A stretch of 48,859 nucleotides of DNA, from assembly GCA_017431845.1 (NCBI GenBank), contig JAFRKG010000048.1, forward strand, positions 1-48,859, given 5' to 3'. Below, in pieces: positions 38,191-48,385 of the stretch. A program made the position numbers and the translations under genes. The stretch comes from Methanosphaera sp. (GTDB lineage: Archaea > Methanobacteriota > Methanobacteria > Methanobacteriales > Methanobacteriaceae). The notes under the pieces were generated by a model that worked only from the letters and a program-made list of their open reading frames with translations, was not told the DNA's origin and searched no databases. The stretch's first letter is position 1. The number at the start of each line of letters is the position of its first letter.

Positions 38191-38477
38191 TTATATCTTT
38201 TTTTAGGTTGTTTTTTTGAAAAATAGAATAAAAAATTTAAGAAATAAATATTTTTTGCTCTTAGGATGTTTTTTGAGCATTTTGGAGTTTTTTTATTTCT
38301 TTTTTTTGTACAAGTTATATTATGTTTTTTTTAATAAGGAGTGGTGAGTTATTAGACTTTTTTTTAAAAGTTTTTTTTATAATAGGTGATTTAATTAAAC
38401 TATTGTATTTTTTTTGTAGGAGTAATAGTTTTTTACTTTTAATTGAATGTTTTTATAGTCTTTTTAATTTAACTCGG

Positions 38478-38516
38478 TTGACTAAATTTTTAGGATAACC
38501 TAAATTTCTTAGTCAA
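38478..38516. promoter_or_regulatory. Palindrome with two nested arms
   Basis: Outer arms TTGACTAA and TTAGTCAA (8 bases each) enclose inner arms TTTAGG and CCTAAA around ATAA. A related but smaller palindrome, TTTTGG-TATA-CCTAAAA, lies about 40 bases downstream. The two share the CCTAAA half-site, which suggests a protein binding site or a structured RNA end. Confidence 0.45.
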
Positions 38517-38559
38517 TTAAATGTTGTACTTAAAAGTATATAAAGGTTTTGGTATACCT

Positions 38560-38675
38560 AAAAATTTTCTTGCGTAAAAAATTATTTACCAATACCACAA
38601 GATACAACCACATTTCCCGGGAATTTAATCATAAAACAACATATAAAACATCATATAATTAATTAATCCAATTAA
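38560..38675 (+). ncRNA. Possible small RNA downstream of a TATA-like box
   Basis: AAAAGTATATAAAGG at about 38534-38547 looks like an archaeal TATA box with no gene downstream on its strand. A transcript starting about 25 bases later would contain GTAAA/TTTAC arms and TTCCCGGGAA and would run antisense into the 3' end of the next gene. Nothing proves that it is transcribed. Confidence 0.2.
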
Positions 38676-39293
38676 TTAAAATTTTATACCAAAATAATCC
38701 AATAAATGATTAATTCTTGAGAAAAATCCATCATATTGTTTATTATGTATGTTATCCAAGAAGTCTTCCACCCTATCATCTACTTCTTTTAGGTATGACT
38801 GATTTTGGTAATCTATTTTTGTAAAATATTGGATTTGCACAGCATAATTTTTATCTTCAATATTGAACACATAATTTACTCCCATACAATCCCATGTGGT
38901 GTTCGTGTCTCTTGAAGGATTATAAAAGTATTGTTTTGAAACATTCTTTCCACCTAATTTTATGTTTGATTCATTTACTACCTCATATCCTCCTTTTTCC
39001 ATTTGTCTGAACTTTTCTGTAGATATCCGAGTAATATGATCTTCCGGCCAGTTTTCCCATATGTTCCATATTACATACTTATTTGTTATCGAATCATTGG
39101 TTTTTGCTTTGTCGGTCATATTGAGTTCACTTGTCGTGTTCCATGATTCTGGAACAACTATCTGAGAATTTCCCACATCAAATGTTTTATCAGTAGATAA
39201 AGTTAGGAAACTGTTTAATGCTCCTAGGTTTGCTACAATGTATAAAAAGATTATTAAGAGAATTATGCTGATAATCTTGTCTTTTGTTCTCAT
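38676..39293 (-). CDS. Membrane-anchored exported protein, unknown function
   Basis: A 205-residue protein with a basic N-terminus (MRTKDK) and one hydrophobic helix (about 7-27). The rest is outside: strands around FDVGNSQIVVPESWN, then YVIWNIWENWPED, GYEVVNESNIKLGGKNV and YAVQIQYFTKIDY. The middle resembles the small lipoprotein-like/PsbP-like fold of archaeal exported proteins, weakly. Several N-x-T sites. It starts by ATGA overlap with the synthase gene and is the last gene of the signalling operon, so it may help export or bind the polymer. Confidence 0.75.
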   Translation of the reverse strand: MRTKDKIISIILLIIFLYIVANLGALNSFLTLSTDKTFDVGNSQIVVPESWNTTSELNMTDKAKTNDSITNKYVIWNIWENWPEDHITRISTEKFRQMEKGGYEVVNESNIKLGGKNVSKQYFYNPSRDTNTTWDCMGVNYVFNIEDKNYAVQIQYFTKIDYQNQSYLKEVDDRVEDFLDNIHNKQYDGFFSRINHLLDYFGIKF

Positions 39294-41125
39294 CCTTTTT
39301 CACCATCTTTGTGTGTTCCCAGATGTTCTGTTTTTGTCCATGTTCTTTCACGTCTGGTTATGAGTGTGTACATTGTCATAAAATATAATGGTATTAAATA
39401 GAAGCAATACAACCAGTAGCTTACCAGATCTTTTAGGAAGGTCAAGTATTTTTTATCATCTCTTATAAGAGATATTGCTATACCTGGCAGGAATGCTATT
39501 GCTGATGTTATTCCAATTATTAATGGTGCTTCCATCCTAATTACTGTTGGTATTCCCCATACAAACCATGCTAGAATGTTTATGATGAATATTAAGAATC
39601 CCACGAATATAAATAGATTGAATGCATAGTATGATACATGCGTTAGTATTCCTATTTTTTCTGTGAATGATATTTTGGATGAAATAATTGGAGTACCGTA
39701 TATAAATAGTGTTTCAAAGTTTCCCATTGCCCATCTTACTCGTTGTTTTAGGAATGGTTTCCATTTTATTACGGCTTCTTGATATATTGCTACTTCTGGA
39801 CAGAATCTTATGTCTCCCTGACCTAATGCTACTTTAACACTTAGGTTCAAGTCTTCTGTCACAGCAAATCCGTCCCATTTTCCTGCTTTGAGTATAGCTT
39901 CTTTTTTAACAAACTGTCCATTTCCTCCGAGGAATCCATTGTACCCAATTATGTCTTTTGCTCTCAGTACATTTCCAAAGCCTGCAAATTCTACATCTTG
40001 CATTCTTGCAAGAAAATTTTCATCAGCATTATACATTCTTACTCTTGATTGTACTGCTTGTACTTTTTCATCGTTTAAGTATGGCATTATTGTGGACAAA
40101 TACTCTGGTGCTACTCTTGTATCTGCATCAAATACTCCGATAACTTCTCCTTTTGCAAGTATTAAACCATCATTTAATACGAAACCTTTTCCTTTTCCAG
40201 ATTTTGGGGGCTGTCGTGTGATTATTTTCAGATTATCAAAATCATCTTTAAGATTTACCAGTATTTTTCCTGTATTGTCTTCTGATCCGTCATTTATTAC
40301 TATTACTTCAAAATTTTGTTTTCCTTCCCATTTGTAGTCCATAGATGCTATGCTTCTAACTGTTGCTCCAATAGTATGTTCCTCATTATGTGCTGGTATG
40401 AATATTGATACAAATGGTGGCTTACCCTCATAAGGTATGGCTTTTTTCATTTTTTTAAGACTTACTAGAGCAAGTATTAAATTCAGCACTGCTGGAATGA
40501 AAATAATCCATTGTATGAATGTAACATTCCTAGAGATTATTCCACCAACAATCAATATTATGGACAAAACAAAAACTAGAATAGAATAAAACTTTTCAAT
40601 AACAAGATCAACATTTTTCTCATGAAGATTCGCTTCATATGATTCAATTTTTTCAATCTTTTGTAAATGAGTACGTAACCCCACCTCTATGGCAAACTTA
40701 ATCTGATCAATAGAGTAATTTTCTAAGATAAAACCATAATTATAAATAACAAAATCATCCTTATCCAAATCTTGTTCATTGTTAAGAATATAAATTAATG
40801 GCAAATTAAATGAAACCAATTTATGGCCTAACTTAATACCATCCCATTCACCATCCAAATCCAAACTTATAAAAACCATATCCGGTGACTTAGACTCTAT
40901 ATCCTTTAAAGCTTCTTTTGCATTACCCATTTGTCCAACCAGATTATACTCCAATAAATTAACTGTTTCTTCTATTTTATTTATTACATCCTCATTTTCG
41001 GATACAACATAAATCCTAGCTTTATCATCATGTATGTGTTTTATCTGATTAAATCTGCTTTTATTTAAATTAGAAAACTCTTCTTTAGCAATATCATTTA
41101 ATTCATCATTTCTAATAAAAACCAC
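39290..41125 (-). CDS. Pseudo-receiver fused to processive GT2 (cellulose synthase-like)
   Basis: A 611-residue fusion. Residues about 35-155 align with the neighbouring receivers (PDMVFISLDLDGEWDGIKLG) but Ser87 replaces the phosphorylated Asp and the switch Lys is lost, so it is a pseudo-receiver. Two membrane segments lie at about 180-222. The GT2 core has FVSIFIPAHNEEHTIGATVR, FDADT (Asp333/Asp335), TED (423-425) and QRVRW (461-465), the set of processive beta-glycan or hyaluronan-type synthases. Four or so membrane segments follow. It probably makes and exports a polysaccharide under signal control. The GTG at 41125 is a weak start; GTGG then five Ts and ATT (41116) is an alternative. 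It follows a receiver gene by 12 bases. Confidence 0.88.
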   Translation of the reverse strand: MVFIRNDELNDIAKEEFSNLNKSRFNQIKHIHDDKARIYVVSENEDVINKIEETVNLLEYNLVGQMGNAKEALKDIESKSPDMVFISLDLDGEWDGIKLGHKLVSFNLPLIYILNNEQDLDKDDFVIYNYGFILENYSIDQIKFAIEVGLRTHLQKIEKIESYEANLHEKNVDLVIEKFYSILVFVLSIILIVGGIISRNVTFIQWIIFIPAVLNLILALVSLKKMKKAIPYEGKPPFVSIFIPAHNEEHTIGATVRSIASMDYKWEGKQNFEVIVINDGSEDNTGKILVNLKDDFDNLKIITRQPPKSGKGKGFVLNDGLILAKGEVIGVFDADTRVAPEYLSTIMPYLNDEKVQAVQSRVRMYNADENFLARMQDVEFAGFGNVLRAKDIIGYNGFLGGNGQFVKKEAILKAGKWDGFAVTEDLNLSVKVALGQGDIRFCPEVAIYQEAVIKWKPFLKQRVRWAMGNFETLFIYGTPIISSKISFTEKIGILTHVSYYAFNLFIFVGFLIFIINILAWFVWGIPTVIRMEAPLIIGITSAIAFLPGIAISLIRDDKKYLTFLKDLVSYWLYCFYLIPLYFMTMYTLITRRERTWTKTEHLGTHKDGEKG

Positions 41126-41137
41126 ATCCAGAAAAAT

Positions 41138-41548
41138 CTATTTAACAAAACCATGAGCTAAATTAATCTTCTCATTCTCTATATTAGACCTGTTAATCGC
41201 ACATTCTATGTTATGTTTTAAAATATTTTTCTCAAAAGGTTTCCCAATAAATGCATAACTAGGACTATTCTCTAAAGCTTCATTGAAAGTCACATCATCA
41301 GTGTTAGCAGTTAAATAAATAACAGGCAAATCAAATTGAATAATTAATTCGGAAGCTTCTATACCAGTCATTTCTCCTTTGAGTTTAATGTCCATTATTG
41401 TTATGTCAGGACATTGTTCAGCGGCAATATCAACAGCTTCCGGGCCATTATCCACAACTGCAATAACTTCATACCCTAAATCTTCCAATGTCAGTTTCAA
41501 ATCCAGAGCAGTGATTGCTTCATCCTCAACAATCAGTACCGTGGTCAT
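41138..41548 (-). CDS. Receiver-only response regulator
   Basis: A 136-residue CheY-like protein. Acidic pocket VEDE (residues 7-10), phosphoacceptor Asp53 in TIMDIKLKGEMTG, switch Thr80 in VIYLTAN, and Lys103 in IGKPFEKN are all present. There is no output domain; the C-terminus is a short helix. It should accept phosphate from the histidine kinase in the same operon and act by protein contact, perhaps with the pseudo-receiver of the synthase. The ATG at 41548 is preferred to the GTG at 41563, since GGTGG lies 5 bases upstream. Confidence 0.92.
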   Translation of the reverse strand: MTTVLIVEDEAITALDLKLTLEDLGYEVIAVVDNGPEAVDIAAEQCPDITIMDIKLKGEMTGIEASELIIQFDLPVIYLTANTDDVTFNEALENSPSYAFIGKPFEKNILKHNIECAINRSNIENEKINLAHGFVK

Positions 41549-41569
41549 ATCATCCACCACCACTTTTTT

Positions 41570-41917
41570 TTATAATATAGAGTCCATTATTTCAGTGAAT
41601 TCATTTATATTAACCGGCTTTTTAACATATACTACTTCCTGATTCTTCAAATTTATAGGAACATTATCAGGATTTGCTGACAAGAATATAATTTTAATAT
41701 CATTCTGTGAAAGTTCTTCAGCCATTTGAATCCCATTCATATCTCCTTTAATATTAATGTCAGCAACAACCAAATCAATCTGGTTTTCTTCACAAATCTT
41801 AAACGCATCCTGCGCATTATCTGATATGAAAACCTGAAAACCTTTATCTTCTAATTGAAATTTAATATCTAAAGCAGTTATTGCTTCATCTTCCACTATT
41901 AAAATCGAATTTGACAT
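41570..41917 (-). CDS. Receiver-only response regulator
   Basis: A 115-residue receiver domain only: VEDE at residues 8-11, phosphoacceptor Asp53 in LVVADINIKGDMNG, Ser80 in IIFLSAN, and Lys100 in YVKKPVN. It resembles the adjacent receiver but is clearly diverged. It starts 4 bases after the stop of the histidine kinase, so the two are coupled and form a likely pair. Two receivers behind one kinase suggest a branched or phosphate-sink arrangement; this is inferred. Confidence 0.92.
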   Translation of the reverse strand: MSNSILIVEDEAITALDIKFQLEDKGFQVFISDNAQDAFKICEENQIDLVVADINIKGDMNGIQMAEELSQNDIKIIFLSANPDNVPINLKNQEVVYVKKPVNINEFTEIMDSIL

Positions 41918-41921
41918 ACTA

Positions 41922-43004
41922 TCACTTTCTTATTGGTATACACATGTCCATACAATATCCATCTTCTGAGCTAAGTTCATACTTTCCATCAATCTGATTA
42001 ATAAGAGATTCTATTAGTATAGTTCCAAGACCAGAATGATGTTCATTTATCACGTTTAATCCAACACCCGTATCATAATATTTAACAAACATATTATCAT
42101 CATCAACATTAACTATGATACCAATAAGTTTTTCTTCTATAGTATCATCAAATGCATGTTTTATGGAATTAATAATCAGTTCATTCAATATAAGAAACAG
42201 TGGGTTTGACACGTCAATACTTAGATGAGTATCCCTATTTATTTCAAATTTAAACTTTATATTCAAATTACCATACAAGTTTTTAATATTCAATTCAAAG
42301 TCTTTCATAATCTTTAATAATGATACATAATTTAAATTTTCTGTATATAACTGGTTATGTATTAACGCCATCGAGGAAACTGATAATTTCATATATTCAC
42401 TAATTGTCTGATTATCATATCCGAATCTTTGCTGTAAATTAATTAAACTTAATAATATCTGCAAATTATTTTTCACCCTATGATGCACTTCCTTTACCAG
42501 GATATTATTATGTACAGCAAACTCCTCTAATAATAGTTTATCCTTCACGTAATCTGTTACATCATCTACAAAGATTACAAATGAATTTTCCATCAAACTA
42601 CTAAATGAAATATCAAGGTATAACAATTCAGTAGATCTTTTATATAAAATGTTTCTGACTCGAAACTGATCTATCTGTTTTTTAAAAAACTTCTTTCTGA
42701 AATAATTTAATTCTTCACTTATCTCATCATAATTCAACACATTCTGATAAAAGAATGTTCTAAAATCATCATATGAAAAGTTATCAACATCAAAAGTCAT
42801 TCCTAATAAAGAAGATAAGTTATGTTCTTCCACATACTCAAATGAAAAATCTGAACATAATATGCCATGAGTAGTATGAACACGTGTTGCATTTATCTCA
42901 ACGCCATGTGTTAAAGCTATGTCCTTGTAATTGTCCAGTTTATTAACAATCTTCTGAAAAATTATTTCATCATTTTTAATATTATGTTCATACCTTTTTG
43001 TCAT
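41922..43004 (-). CDS. HisKA_2-type sensor histidine kinase
   Basis: A 360-residue kinase without membrane segments. The N-terminal 160 residues include a PAS-like sensor region (RVHTTHGILCSDFSFEYVEE and NILYKRSTELLYLDISFSS). The dimerisation/phosphoacceptor helix is KEVHHRVKNNLQILLSLINL, with His174/His175. The HATPase part has N box NELIINSIKHAF and G1 box DTGVGL (311-316), so ATP binding looks intact. The ATG at 43004 is preferred over 43046 because GGAG lies 6 bases upstream. It heads the signalling operon. Confidence 0.9.
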   Translation of the reverse strand: MTKRYEHNIKNDEIIFQKIVNKLDNYKDIALTHGVEINATRVHTTHGILCSDFSFEYVEEHNLSSLLGMTFDVDNFSYDDFRTFFYQNVLNYDEISEELNYFRKKFFKKQIDQFRVRNILYKRSTELLYLDISFSSLMENSFVIFVDDVTDYVKDKLLLEEFAVHNNILVKEVHHRVKNNLQILLSLINLQQRFGYDNQTISEYMKLSVSSMALIHNQLYTENLNYVSLLKIMKDFELNIKNLYGNLNIKFKFEINRDTHLSIDVSNPLFLILNELIINSIKHAFDDTIEEKLIGIIVNVDDDNMFVKYYDTGVGLNVINEHHSGLGTILIESLINQIDGKYELSSEDGYCMDMCIPIRK

Positions 43005-43329
43005 TATAATCTCCACATTTTTTATAATAGTTTTAGTATAAGACATGTACTATATAATACTTAGTTTAACCTCACTATTAAAGATAATAGGAAAATAAAA
43101 TATTAATAAATTAAAAAAAAATAGTAATTCTATATAAAAATACTTTAACAATAACCATAAACTAAAACAAAGAAAAACGAATAACCATACCTGTTTTAAG
43201 ATTATTTACATTAATAAAACATGAAATATTTTAATAATGAATACAAAAAGAAGACTAAATTAATAAACAAGTATTAAGGTAATGAAAAACATATACAGTA
43301 TAACATAATAATTATTTTAGAGGTAAAAA

Positions 43330-44364
43330 ATGTCCAAAATTAAAACAGAAATAAAAGAAGTTATAACAGATGACTTAAACATATACGAAAAAATAACATC
43401 AAACAAGAAAGTTACAACAGATAATAATTCAAAACAAGGAGTATTATTAACAAACAGGACATTAACTTATGTTGAAGAATACAATTTTTTGGACACCTTA
43501 GGAATAAACATTGAAGTTAATAGGGATAATTTAAACAAATTAAACCTCAACCTCTTAGCCAACATTCTAAATTACAGTGAATTCATAAAAGACCCTGAAA
43601 TATTCAACAAATTATTCAATAATGAAATCAAAGAAATTCATTTAGAAAATATATTATATAAACGAGATGAAGAACTATTATACCTTGACATTAATTTCAA
43701 CACAATACTAAATGAATATATACTAATCACGGTAAACGATAACAGTAATTCACTAGAAGCACAAGTGGTACTTGAAAAACTAGTGAAAGATAACCAAAAT
43801 CTAATCAAAGAACTTCATCACAGAGTAAAAAACAATCTCCAAGTACTGTTAAGTTTAATTAGTATACAGGAACGTTTTAAAAAGAGTGATTATTTAATTA
43901 AAGAATATTTGAAGCTGTCAATCACATCAATGTCAATAATGCATTCTCAACTATACTCAGAAAATCTGACACATGTATCAACAGAACGAATTTTAACAGA
44001 ACTAAAAGCTAAATGTGAAAATTTATACAATTCATCTAACATAACCTTTGATTTTAAAAGTAAAAATGATTCACAAATCCCAATTGAAAAAGCAAATCCA
44101 ATACTACTGTTGTTAGATGAACTCATAATCAATTCAATTTATTCATTGAAAACAGGTAATAACAAGATTATTAACTGTACCTTCATGACAAAAGAAGATA
44201 ATTTAATCATATTCTACAAAGACAATACATCCAAGGAACAAGGAGATAATGATGGTATTGGAGAGTTATTAATCGAATCATTAATCAGTCAAGCTGATGG
44301 AAGAAAAGGAAACACCAAAGACACAGGATACGAGTATAAAATAATAATACCCATCACCACATAA
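43330..44364 (+). CDS. HisKA_2-type histidine kinase paralogue with degenerate ATP site
   Basis: A 344-residue paralogue of the divergent kinase 283 bases away: shared blocks are VEEYNFLDTLGI, ENILYKRDEELLYLDINF and KELHHRVKNNLQVLLSLISI (His163/His164). The N box is LDELIINSIYSL. The G1 box, DTGVGL in the sister, reads DNTSKE here, while GIGELLIESL (G2 region) remains. ATP binding may be weak or lost, so it could act as a phosphatase, a dimer partner or a regulator of the sister kinase. AGAGGT lies 6 bases before the ATG. Confidence 0.88.
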   Translation: MSKIKTEIKEVITDDLNIYEKITSNKKVTTDNNSKQGVLLTNRTLTYVEEYNFLDTLGINIEVNRDNLNKLNLNLLANILNYSEFIKDPEIFNKLFNNEIKEIHLENILYKRDEELLYLDINFNTILNEYILITVNDNSNSLEAQVVLEKLVKDNQNLIKELHHRVKNNLQVLLSLISIQERFKKSDYLIKEYLKLSITSMSIMHSQLYSENLTHVSTERILTELKAKCENLYNSSNITFDFKSKNDSQIPIEKANPILLLLDELIINSIYSLKTGNNKIINCTFMTKEDNLIIFYKDNTSKEQGDNDGIGELLIESLISQADGRKGNTKDTGYEYKIIIPITT

Positions 44365-44521
44365 TACATTAAACAATAAAAAAAATAACAAATTATATTA
44401 AAAACTTTTTTCAATTTAAATAATACCCCAATATTTTAACAAAATACTCATCATATAAATAAAAATACAGGAAAAGACATAATTCATCCCAAACCGGGTA
44501 AAAAGGGGAGTTTATGATAAA

Positions 44522-46381
44522 ATGAAACTAATCTACATGGATGAAAACAACAAAAAACTTTTCGATATAAGAATAGAAAAACTAGAATACATCGACCAAA
44601 AAGAGATAATAACAGATATTTCTGAACTAGATGATGATTATATAAAAGTATTAAGTAGATTAAAAGAAGAAGTATGGTTATACAAACCAACAAAGAATAG
44701 AGAAGACTTCTACATAGAATACTATAACAACCTGTACTATTTTAATGAAGATGATTACAATTTTAAAGTAGGAACCCTTCTATCAAAGACACTGGGAAGA
44801 TACGATAAAGACGAAAATCTTCTAAAATTAATGAAAAAAATATACCAGACAGGTCAAGAACAAAAAGGATTAATAAAAATACTAAGAAATGATGGAAAAC
44901 TCTACAAATACATAAACTACCATTACTTCAAATTACATGAAAGAATCATAGTAATACACGAAGATAAAACAGAAATAAAAATGTACAGGGACAGTACACT
45001 AAATGATAAAGATTTAGGAGTAGCAATTTACCAGAAAAACAAGTTTGTAGAAGTAAACGAAAACTACGCAAAAATAGTTAATAAAACAAGAGACCAACTA
45101 TTAGGTGCATCCCAAGACTTACAAGGCGTACCAGAAAACATGGTTAAAATAATCAAAAGAGAATTAAAAGCAATAGAAAACCAGGAAAAACTATCCTACA
45201 AAATGCCAATGATCTCTTATGATAAAAATGGGGGTGTAAGATACTATATTAATGCAGAAGGATCCTACATAACCTACAACAACATGCCCGCAGTACTCTT
45301 TAAAATAAAAGATTTGACAGAACAAGAAAGAGCAAAAAGACAAAACGAAACAAACATGGATGAAATCATACGACTAAAAAGTACAATACACGAATTAAAA
45401 AAGTATTCAAAAACATTCCTGTCCTATGCAATATACCCCGACAACTACAGTGTAAGTGAAAACTTCTACGATATAATAGAAGATACTGAAAGAGAATACA
45501 AATTCAAAAAAGACAGCATCAGAGATTTTATTTTAGGAGAAGACCTGAAACTATACGATACAATGATAAATTCTATAAGTCCAAGCAATCCCGAAGTAGA
45601 ATTCACAACAAGTATAATGACCCTAAAATTTAACATAAAATACATACGCCACTACTTTAAAAGAATATATGACACAGAAGGAAAAGCCACATCATACGTA
45701 TCAGCACACCAAGATATAACCAATGAAGCTACATACTCCAATAATCTTAAAAAGCAGATATATGAACAAAATGAAACAATAAAAGACAAGGATATACAGA
45801 TAAAAGATGCACATCACACAATAAAAAATAACCTGAATATATTATTATCATTAATAAGAATGCAGGAACATTATCAACCCGATAAAGAGAAGATATTAGA
45901 AGATACGAAAACACATATTAAATCAATCAGTGTAATGCACGAAAAACTATATCAATCAAAAACATTCGAAGATTTACAAATGAAGGAATACATAGACTCA
46001 ATAGTAACATCACTCTTTGATATATATTCCTCAAAAATAAAATATATCTCTAAAGTAGATGAAATATACCTAAATTCAAGCCAAGCCGGGACACTAGGAC
46101 TGATAATCAATGAACTATTAAACAACACAGTTAAATACGCTTTTCCCGATGAAAATATTGGAGAAGTAGAAATAAAACTATCAAGAATAGATAAGATGAT
46201 AGAAGTAGAATATCATGATAATGGAATAGGTATACCAGACAGTGTAGACTTTGAAAACCCTAAAACATTAGGACTAATTGTAGTACAAAACCTGACAAAA
46301 CAACTAGATGGAAAAATAACATACACTTATGACAATGGAACTCTTATAAAACTAGAATTCAAGGAAAAAGAATCATTCTAA
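44522..46381 (+). CDS. PAS-containing HisKA_2 sensor histidine kinase
   Basis: A 619-residue soluble kinase. A PAS domain at about 165-270 includes LGVAIYQKNKFVEVNENYAK, and a second PAS-like region lies at about 300-410 with a coiled stretch at about 410-430. The phosphoacceptor region is KDAHHTIKNNLNILLSLIRM, His431/His432. The HATPase has NELLNNTVKYAF, then YHDNGIGIPD and TLGLIVVQNL, all intact. GGGGAG lies 11 bases before the ATG, with a minute ATG ATA AAA TGA frame in between. The ligand is unknown; the cytoplasmic location suggests a redox or metabolite cue. No response regulator is next to it. Confidence 0.9.
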   Translation: MKLIYMDENNKKLFDIRIEKLEYIDQKEIITDISELDDDYIKVLSRLKEEVWLYKPTKNREDFYIEYYNNLYYFNEDDYNFKVGTLLSKTLGRYDKDENLLKLMKKIYQTGQEQKGLIKILRNDGKLYKYINYHYFKLHERIIVIHEDKTEIKMYRDSTLNDKDLGVAIYQKNKFVEVNENYAKIVNKTRDQLLGASQDLQGVPENMVKIIKRELKAIENQEKLSYKMPMISYDKNGGVRYYINAEGSYITYNNMPAVLFKIKDLTEQERAKRQNETNMDEIIRLKSTIHELKKYSKTFLSYAIYPDNYSVSENFYDIIEDTEREYKFKKDSIRDFILGEDLKLYDTMINSISPSNPEVEFTTSIMTLKFNIKYIRHYFKRIYDTEGKATSYVSAHQDITNEATYSNNLKKQIYEQNETIKDKDIQIKDAHHTIKNNLNILLSLIRMQEHYQPDKEKILEDTKTHIKSISVMHEKLYQSKTFEDLQMKEYIDSIVTSLFDIYSSKIKYISKVDEIYLNSSQAGTLGLIINELLNNTVKYAFPDENIGEVEIKLSRIDKMIEVEYHDNGIGIPDSVDFENPKTLGLIVVQNLTKQLDGKITYTYDNGTLIKLEFKEKESF

Positions 46382-46573: not shown

Positions 46574-48385
46574 TTATTCATAGCCCAATTCTTTCAACCG
46601 TGATAATGCAGTATCACGAATAGGATACCATTCTTTACGGGTTACTTCATATTCATATCCATCATGATCACTGTATCCAACCACTTCTCTATTGGTAATC
46701 ACTTCAAAAGTTGAATCATGAGATAACTGTAAGAGTACTTCTTTATCAGTTATTTTTTCTACAGCATATCTTCGAATATCATTATTTTCAGCATTATTTT
46801 TTGCAATATCCACCAAACAGGATTGGTTAGTAAAATGAGAATTTTTAATAGCGTGTGAACGAACAATTTCCTCATTATCATTTTCAAATACATATATCAA
46901 TGTTTCCTCATCTTTGATTTTCATAGTTGCTTCTCTTCTAGCATATTTATTTTGGGCATTTTTTGCTAGGTTAATCAATAACTTTTCATCCCCTATTCTT
47001 TCAACATCTTTTTCAATGTCAAAATAATCTAAGTTTTCCAGTAAAGATGCTAATGCAGTTTCATCCTCTACTTTTTTGACGGCTTCTATTCTAACTACAT
47101 TATAATCATGATTTTTAGCTATGTCTATAATTTTTTCCTGATCTGATAAGTTAGGGTTTTTAACGGCTTCTTCACATATGTCCCCATCATCAAAGTTTTC
47201 TATAATATTAATCAATACCTCTTGACTGTTAATTTTTTTAACGGCTTCTAATTTAACTTTAGAATCTAATGCATAATTAATTACATCCATTAATTCAGAA
47301 TCATCATCAATCTCATTGACTCTTTCTACATCAATTATGTATATGGAGTCAGGATATAATTCTTTTAATCTGTCTTTTGCTATATCACGAACTCTTATGC
47401 TGGAATCATGTTTAGCTGTTTCAAACAATATTTTTTCATCAGTAATTTTCATTGCAGCCACTTCACGAACTATATCCGTGTCGCTTTTAAGAATATCTGC
47501 TAAAAATTCTTGATCTTCCACGTTCCATAGTGCAACTCTGCGAACCCATTTCTCGTTTGCATTTGTAGCAATGTCTTTTAGAATGTTTTCATCAGATATT
47601 TTGTATGCTGCTTCCTCCCTAGTATCCTGATATTCCCCATTTAATGCAATATCTTTCAACAATTCTTCATCATCTAAATCTACAATGGCACTGTGTCTAT
47701 TACTCTTATACTTATTAGTTTTTGCAATGTCAAGATTAAACTGTTTTGTTCTTTCTATTTCCATTCGTTCTTTTTCTTTTATTTTTTCAGATAATAGTTC
47801 TTTATTTTCTATTTTTTCTGTTGCTTTTTCACGTATCTCTGAATTTTTATCATATGCTGCTATGTTTATTAGTGTGTCTTGATTATTTAATCTGCTGATT
47901 GCTTCTATTCTAAGACGTTTATTATTTGCATATTCGGCTATTTTAATAAGTTTATCTTCATCAGCAATCATTTTTAAAGCATCTAAGTAGTCTTTATTCA
48001 TAGTATAAGTTACATCCTCGTATTTAAGAAGTAATTCCATTAACACTTTTTCGTTATTGCTTTTTATTGCTGCTTTAAGTCTAACATCATCATTGAAATG
48101 AGTTTCAGCTATTTCTGATAATACTCCTTTGTCGTTAATTTTTTCAACAATTCTTAAATAATTATTTTTAAAAAGCTGTTTATCATTTTTTATTATATAT
48201 ATTAATGTTTCTTCATCTGTCAAATTAGGATTATCTACTGCTTCTGACCTGACATGATGTGATTCATCATTTTTAGCTATATCCATTAGTATATTTTCAT
48301 CTGTAAGTTCTTTTACTGCATCTCTTCTTACTTTCCAGTTGCTATTTTGATATTTTGGTTTGAACAAATTGTTTAAAAACCCCAT
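46574..48385 (-). CDS. HEAT/LRV-like repeat protein
   Basis: A 603-residue protein built almost wholly of helical repeats of about 22-31 residues. Each unit has a core like L-x-x-I-A-x-N/D followed by V/I-R-x-x-A-V and often I-x-D-E-x-x-L; examples are HHVRSEAVDNPNLTDEETLI and KWVRRVALWNVEDQEFLADI. This is closest to LRV (leucine-rich variant) and HEAT-like repeats, which form curved scaffolds for protein binding. I count roughly 18-20 units. A short unrelated segment near 205-215 breaks the array. No catalytic or membrane part. GGTGA lies 4 bases before the ATG. Partner unknown. Confidence 0.85.
   Translation of the reverse strand: MGFLNNLFKPKYQNSNWKVRRDAVKELTDENILMDIAKNDESHHVRSEAVDNPNLTDEETLIYIIKNDKQLFKNNYLRIVEKINDKGVLSEIAETHFNDDVRLKAAIKSNNEKVLMELLLKYEDVTYTMNKDYLDALKMIADEDKLIKIAEYANNKRLRIEAISRLNNQDTLINIAAYDKNSEIREKATEKIENKELLSEKIKEKERMEIERTKQFNLDIAKTNKYKSNRHSAIVDLDDEELLKDIALNGEYQDTREEAAYKISDENILKDIATNANEKWVRRVALWNVEDQEFLADILKSDTDIVREVAAMKITDEKILFETAKHDSSIRVRDIAKDRLKELYPDSIYIIDVERVNEIDDDSELMDVINYALDSKVKLEAVKKINSQEVLINIIENFDDGDICEEAVKNPNLSDQEKIIDIAKNHDYNVVRIEAVKKVEDETALASLLENLDYFDIEKDVERIGDEKLLINLAKNAQNKYARREATMKIKDEETLIYVFENDNEEIVRSHAIKNSHFTNQSCLVDIAKNNAENNDIRRYAVEKITDKEVLLQLSHDSTFEVITNREVVGYSDHDGYEYEVTRKEWYPIRDTALSRLKELGYE

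Follow-up and report, generated by a model that had tools for sequence, protein, structure and literature searches.

In Methanobacteriaceae, response regulators of the REC-BcsA and REC-REC-BcsA types, in which one or two receiver domains are fused to a BcsA-like synthase, have been described before (MTH_548; Galperin, 2018; PMC5847659). The operon considered here lies on a 48,859-nt contig of a Methanosphaera sp. (JAFRKG010000048.1, analyzed over its whole length and called the window in the following) and encodes a histidine kinase, two stand-alone receivers (REC1 and REC2), a receiver-GT2 synthase and an exported protein. It shares with the MTH_548 type the archaeal order and the combination of N-terminal receiver(s) with a cellulose-synthase-like GT2 domain (PF13641). 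However, the MTH_548 type was given as a domain architecture, and the portion of the article considered here reports no kinase-receiver operon, fission, pseudo-receiver or mechanism, with Methanosphaera being absent from its main text (PMC5847659). A preliminary description of the window had assumed that no archaeal system of this design has been described. Since REC-BcsA and REC-REC-BcsA are already contained in that article, this cannot be upheld for the receiver-GT2 fusion itself, but it stands for the split type of synthase locus, its operon and its pseudo-receiver, which are not mentioned in the portion considered. What appears to be new is thus the history of the system: comparison of related loci indicates that a gene fission separated two formerly fused receivers, the first of which became the free gene REC2, while the second stayed on the synthase and decayed.

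The switching of bacterial pseudo-receivers was called a mystery in a 2025 review, the authors of which were aware of no published functional study of an archaeal one (PMC12632262). PleD from Caulobacter (REC-pseudo-receiver-GGDEF) is similar to the window system in that an intact receiver and a pseudo-receiver govern an enzymatic output, and phosphorylation of its receiver alters the contacts between the two domains (PMC12632262). In the window, however, the intact receiver has a gene of its own, and a membrane polysaccharide synthase takes the place of the diguanylate cyclase as output. Because of this difference in architecture the name PleD was rejected for the window system, although an intact receiver and a pseudo-receiver in a single chain, encoded by separate genes in the window, are found in its relative L050. 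CmrRST from Clostridioides difficile is likewise an operon of a kinase, a normal receiver protein and a pseudo-receiver protein, with their connection being given as unresolved, but its pseudo-receiver is an OmpR-family regulator and not an enzyme, and no evidence of a former single chain is cited (PMC12632262). PhyK and PhyR are the nearest NCBIfam models for the sequence types of the kinase and the receivers; here, the scores were under the cut-offs, a sigma-like output domain is missing and the output is a synthase.

Architecture of the operon

The preliminary description had named five tightly spaced minus-strand genes, and all of these open reading frames are indeed present, arranged head to tail at 38676-43046 with spacings of 4, 6, 12 and -4 nt. 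The operon limits of 39290-43004 given there hold at the kinase end, where ATG 43004 is the likely start codon, but omit most of the fifth gene. The kinase (41922-43046) was assigned to HisKA_2 with 51.5 bits (Pfam cut-off 22.3), and its H-box, N-box, G1 and G2 are all intact. REC1 (41570-41917) and REC2 (41138-41563) reached 61.7 and 69.1 bits with Response_reg (cut-off 30.2) and have intact active sites; neither DNA-binding nor other output domains were found by Pfam in these two proteins. They are followed by the 611-aa membrane synthase (39290-41125), the GT2 domain of which matches PF13641 with 94.9 bits (cut-off 27), and by the exported protein of 205 aa (38676-39293), a conserved downstream partner with one N-terminal transmembrane helix that matched no Pfam family.

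The receiver fused to the synthase (residues 37-150; 40676-41017) scored under the Response_reg cut-off (24.4 vs. 30.2 bits). Nevertheless, it was detected at 4.5e-30 by a family-specific profile, which was built from the receivers of these loci and may include the fused receiver itself, it is predicted to adopt the receiver fold, and it groups with the fused second receivers (RECb) of related proteins in the receiver tree. At the position of the phospho-Asp the alignment places Ser87 (codon 40865-40867), and the switch Lys is replaced by Glu, which agrees with the earlier suggestion that this domain cannot be phosphorylated in the usual way; in addition, the Thr is lost and only Ser-Glu remains of the acidic pair. 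These substitutions support the view that normal phosphorylation chemistry is not available to the domain, and with a receiver fold lacking the phosphotransfer residues it qualifies as a pseudo-receiver.

The GT2 motifs FDAD, TED and QxxRW of the catalytic domain (residues 235-470; 39716-40423) are conserved across 24 homologues. BcsA was the top Foldseek match of the synthase, with hyaluronan synthases also among the top fold matches, and the best NCBIfam match was PgaC_IcaA (TIGR03937) with 137.8 bits (curated cut-off 422.3); the BcsA model TIGR03030 gave 65.6 bits (cut-off 699.1). BcsA and PgaC/IcaA are processive membrane GT2 enzymes with QxxRW as well, but in the window protein, in which Pfam found no PilZ domain, a receiver-type regulatory domain replaces the parts that respond to cyclic di-GMP (c-di-GMP). 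Both names were rejected, since the curated cut-offs were missed by far and the architecture differs, so that neither identity is supported. The AlphaFold2 model of the synthase (mean predicted local distance difference test score 83, predicted template modelling score 0.74) shows the receiver fold, and its helix alpha5 is predicted to run as one single helix into the first transmembrane segment (TM1; residues 139-198; 40532-40711). The same long helix is present in the model of L052, a related protein with two receivers in tandem, at residues 310-369.

Fission and decay of the fused receivers

At a threshold of E <= 1e-40, homologues of the synthase were found in 56 of the 152 genomes of a phylum sample, and among the matches listed all belong to Methanobacteriales, an occurrence of REC-BcsA-like fusions into which the genus Methanosphaera fits. 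Inspection of the gene neighbourhoods at about 57 loci revealed a tandem type with both receivers and the GT2 domain in one chain (REC-REC-GT2, about 20 loci) and a split type, in which the synthase bears one receiver and the gene immediately upstream encodes another (35 loci). The synthase of L060 carries a single intact fused receiver, and two loci (L068 and L071) are without receivers. It had been suggested to check whether kinase and receivers accompany the receiver-GT2 fusion in other Methanobacteriales: almost all homologues bear receivers, and a same-strand upstream kinase is encoded at 32 of the 35 split loci. The refuting pattern named there, homologues mostly lacking the receiver part or kinase neighbours, was not observed. 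Among the tandem loci, the flanks could be read at roughly 16, and just one of these has such a kinase. The operon kinases have intact catalytic boxes. As the identical gene order recurs in more than 30 genomes, a chance neighbourhood was rejected. Of the two free receivers, both of which had been proposed to dock, the conserved partner gene is that of REC2, which always adjoins the pseudo-receiver synthase; REC1 was seen only in Methanosphaera-type loci and L046 and is placed outside the conserved core.

In a tree of GT domains, all 13 sampled split synthases group together with 99/97 support, in a clade that was recovered in 98% of bootstrap trees and is nested among the tandem forms. For the inner group, a receiver tree separates the free REC2 and the fused first receivers (RECa) of the tandem forms from the pseudo-receivers and RECb (94/90), with none of the sequences misplaced. 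REC2 is accordingly taken as the counterpart of the first fused receiver. In addition, the C-terminal tail of REC2 (NRSNIENEKINLAHG; NRSNIENEKINLAHGFVK region at 41141-41194) and an N-terminal stretch of the synthase (LNDIAKEEF region; 41018-41125) each match parts of the tandem linker and represent the two halves, in this order, of the linker that once joined the receivers. Since a fission predicts exactly such a pattern, the receiver-tree split and both linker remnants support the derivation of the split type given above. The genomes G085 and G185 contain a tandem and a split synthase each, and a paralogue is therefore a possible origin of the split type.

Whereas Asp, Thr and Lys are kept in all 35 free receivers, none of 34 retained receivers of the split forms has a full active site. 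In the tandem forms, the full set is present in 14 of 16 RECa domains, one of the exceptions being a truncated read, and in 15 of 17 RECb domains, with L050 and L051, in which Asp is replaced by Ser and Thr by Val, as the exceptions. As these two decayed without fission, decay of the second receiver occurred at least twice. In all 34 retained receivers of the split forms, the Thr is missing together with the first acidic residue, while Asp is replaced by Ser in six of them (including the window protein) and about ten are without the Lys; every split form thus shares the loss of acidic pair and Thr, and the changes of Asp to Ser and of Lys are confined to particular lineages. These counts place the window protein at the far end of a trend instead of marking it as an isolated oddity. 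Separately, one split-type synthase (L046:5007-9197) was seen to carry about 700 extra N-terminal residues with coiled-coil-like repeats, followed by a very degenerate receiver.

Despite this decay, the retained receivers are held under purifying selection. The ratio of nonsynonymous to synonymous substitution rates (dN/dS) was 0.10-0.36 in five measured pairs, with dS being saturated in more distant ones, and 0.05-0.11 for the GT domain, which is hence under stronger constraint. Long branches and a faster change than in intact receivers might suggest a relic in decay, borne by a constitutive synthase that lost its two-component control in this clade. However, with purifying selection in every measured pair and the fused receiver kept at 35 of 35 split loci, mostly with kinase and REC2 adjoining, this explanation seems very improbable.

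Proposed control of the synthase

Within the genome, three HisKA_2 domains and three receivers were counted, all located in the window at 40784-46027. Receivers were found in exactly five of 20 Methanosphaera genomes, which are the five carriers of the operon (three receivers each, 15 in total, all inside the operon), and none was detected in the remaining 15, one of which is a same-species genome with 99% completeness. In line with the earlier proposal of a control in place of c-di-GMP, neither GGDEF nor PilZ was found in this genome or in 20 relatives, with controls being detected. With its receivers confined to the operon and no GGDEF or PilZ found, the circuit looks closed.

Archaeal two-component signaling is thought to act mainly via protein-protein contacts, according to the portion considered of the article cited above (PMC5847659), and phosphorylation-dependent heterodimers of receiver and pseudo-receiver have been raised as a hypothesis (PMC12632262). 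For the window we favor, with some reserve, a two-component circuit that acts directly on the polymer synthase by docking of REC2 on the pseudo-receiver. The cytosolic HisKA_2 kinase would phosphorylate free REC2, with REC1 as a possible sink, shuttle or second input. Phosphorylated REC2 would then dock in trans on the N-terminal pseudo-receiver of the synthase and shift the pairing or orientation of this domain, and alpha5, predicted to enter TM1 directly, would pass this change to the synthase and thereby switch polymer synthesis on or off; the exported protein may act on or with the polymer outside the cell. Docking in trans is the best and simplest reading, given that related synthases bear counterparts of both REC2 and the pseudo-receiver on one chain, and the synthase is the natural output since the free receivers are without output domain and no other receiver-bearing target was found within the genus. 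Whether the fission cut a PleD-like switch in two, leaving a diffusible phosphorylated receiver that docks on its former neighbour as part of a cassette gained or lost as one and forming the whole receiver repertoire of Methanosphaera, is a broader proposal on which we regard the chances as evenly balanced.

Alternatively, the pseudo-receiver could be a structural or dimerisation module for folding and positioning of TM1, with control exerted via operon expression or via free receivers that have another target, for instance the exported protein, the kinase or the transcription machinery. This would fit the fact that alpha5, leading into TM1, is the sole helix more conserved than in intact second receivers (entropy ratio 0.72), whereas alpha1, alpha2, alpha3, beta4 and the beta3-alpha3 loop drift, and it is recognised that a constitutively active pseudo-receiver protein can be controlled through its expression level (PMC12632262). 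Such a module would, however, explain neither why genus members without the synthase operon have no receivers nor why the REC2 beside the pseudo-receiver synthase stays fully intact, and the missing output domains of both free receivers argue against it as well, so that we consider it unlikely, though the most serious alternative. Less probable still is a pseudo-receiver that senses a small ligand, with the kinase-receiver pair as separate input. For ShkA, the part considered of the respective study describes a pseudo-receiver binding c-di-GMP (PMC7010744), and Ser or small plus hydrophobic residues consistently replace the acidic pair and Thr at the former active-site positions of the split forms; but the lack of GGDEF and PilZ hits and the variability of the beta3-alpha3 and beta4 regions relative to intact receivers speak against it.

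Several points also weigh against docking of REC2 in trans. The bipartition of the receivers has support values slightly below conventional thresholds, in a short tree of 115 columns, and the loss of the covalent linkage could also mean a loss of the interaction. Two loci (L053 and L054) are without a nearby kinase, and the kinase count of the genome covers the HisKA_2 family alone. A point in favor of docking is that the tandem model retrieved PleD in Foldseek over about 340 columns, but the TM-scores were low, and therefore the relative orientation of the receivers is not established; a PDB sequence search with the tandem receivers gave generic receivers only.

If REC2 does dock on the pseudo-receiver, the partner of a pseudo-receiver could be named from evolution: it would be the receiver that has a counterpart on the same chain in related proteins. 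Comprising one kinase, one or two receivers and one enzyme, the circuit would offer a concrete output for archaeal two-component signaling and would give gut methanogens a c-di-GMP-independent route to controlling a GT2 polymer synthase. Because it is small, because no other receiver was detected and because fused, half-decayed fused and split forms exist, control by a pseudo-receiver is directly testable here.

Neighbouring genes and genomic setting

Next to the operon kinase, a divergent paralogous HisKA_2 protein is encoded on the plus strand (43330-44364). Its H-box is intact and a G1 box is missing, and it is likely a pseudokinase beside the active kinase. It is followed by a PAS-HisKA_2 histidine kinase of 619 aa (44522-46381, plus strand), which completes the set of three HisKA_2 proteins found in the genome, and, at the contig end, by a 603-aa protein (46574-48385) with neither a Pfam match above cut-off nor an NCBIfam match. 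Around the tandem loci, neighbouring genes gave no pathway clue. Directly after the exported protein, four of these loci (L052:11081-11683, L086:3396-4001, L089:3154-3774 and L094:7717-8337) encode a HisKA_2-like protein of about 200 aa with an NHRLNND H-box and without the N-box Asn, which is perhaps a phosphotransfer or phosphatase protein. The tandem locus of L089 is furthermore convergent to a kinase-kinase-receiver module (L089:2-2649) with no pseudo-receiver synthase of its own on that contig. A contig (L039) from a metagenome-assembled genome titled Bacillales bears the methanogen operon, with 98% identity between its free receiver and the one of L042, and is probably a misbinned archaeal contig.

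A genome of the same species matches the window at 98-99% up to 38568-38666 and continues with other genes; as it is without the operon, the latter is considered accessory. Its far boundary falls in an assembly gap. A chimeric contig as source of the operon context is less likely, since the next conserved gene of the same-species genome (argD) is found here at the edge of another contig and Methanosphaera sp. rholeuAM6 carries the same operon. At the point where operon-bearing and operon-less strains diverge lies an AT-rich intergenic stretch (38211-38581). Other places of this genome contain copies of it (77% and 71%), as does the same-species genome.

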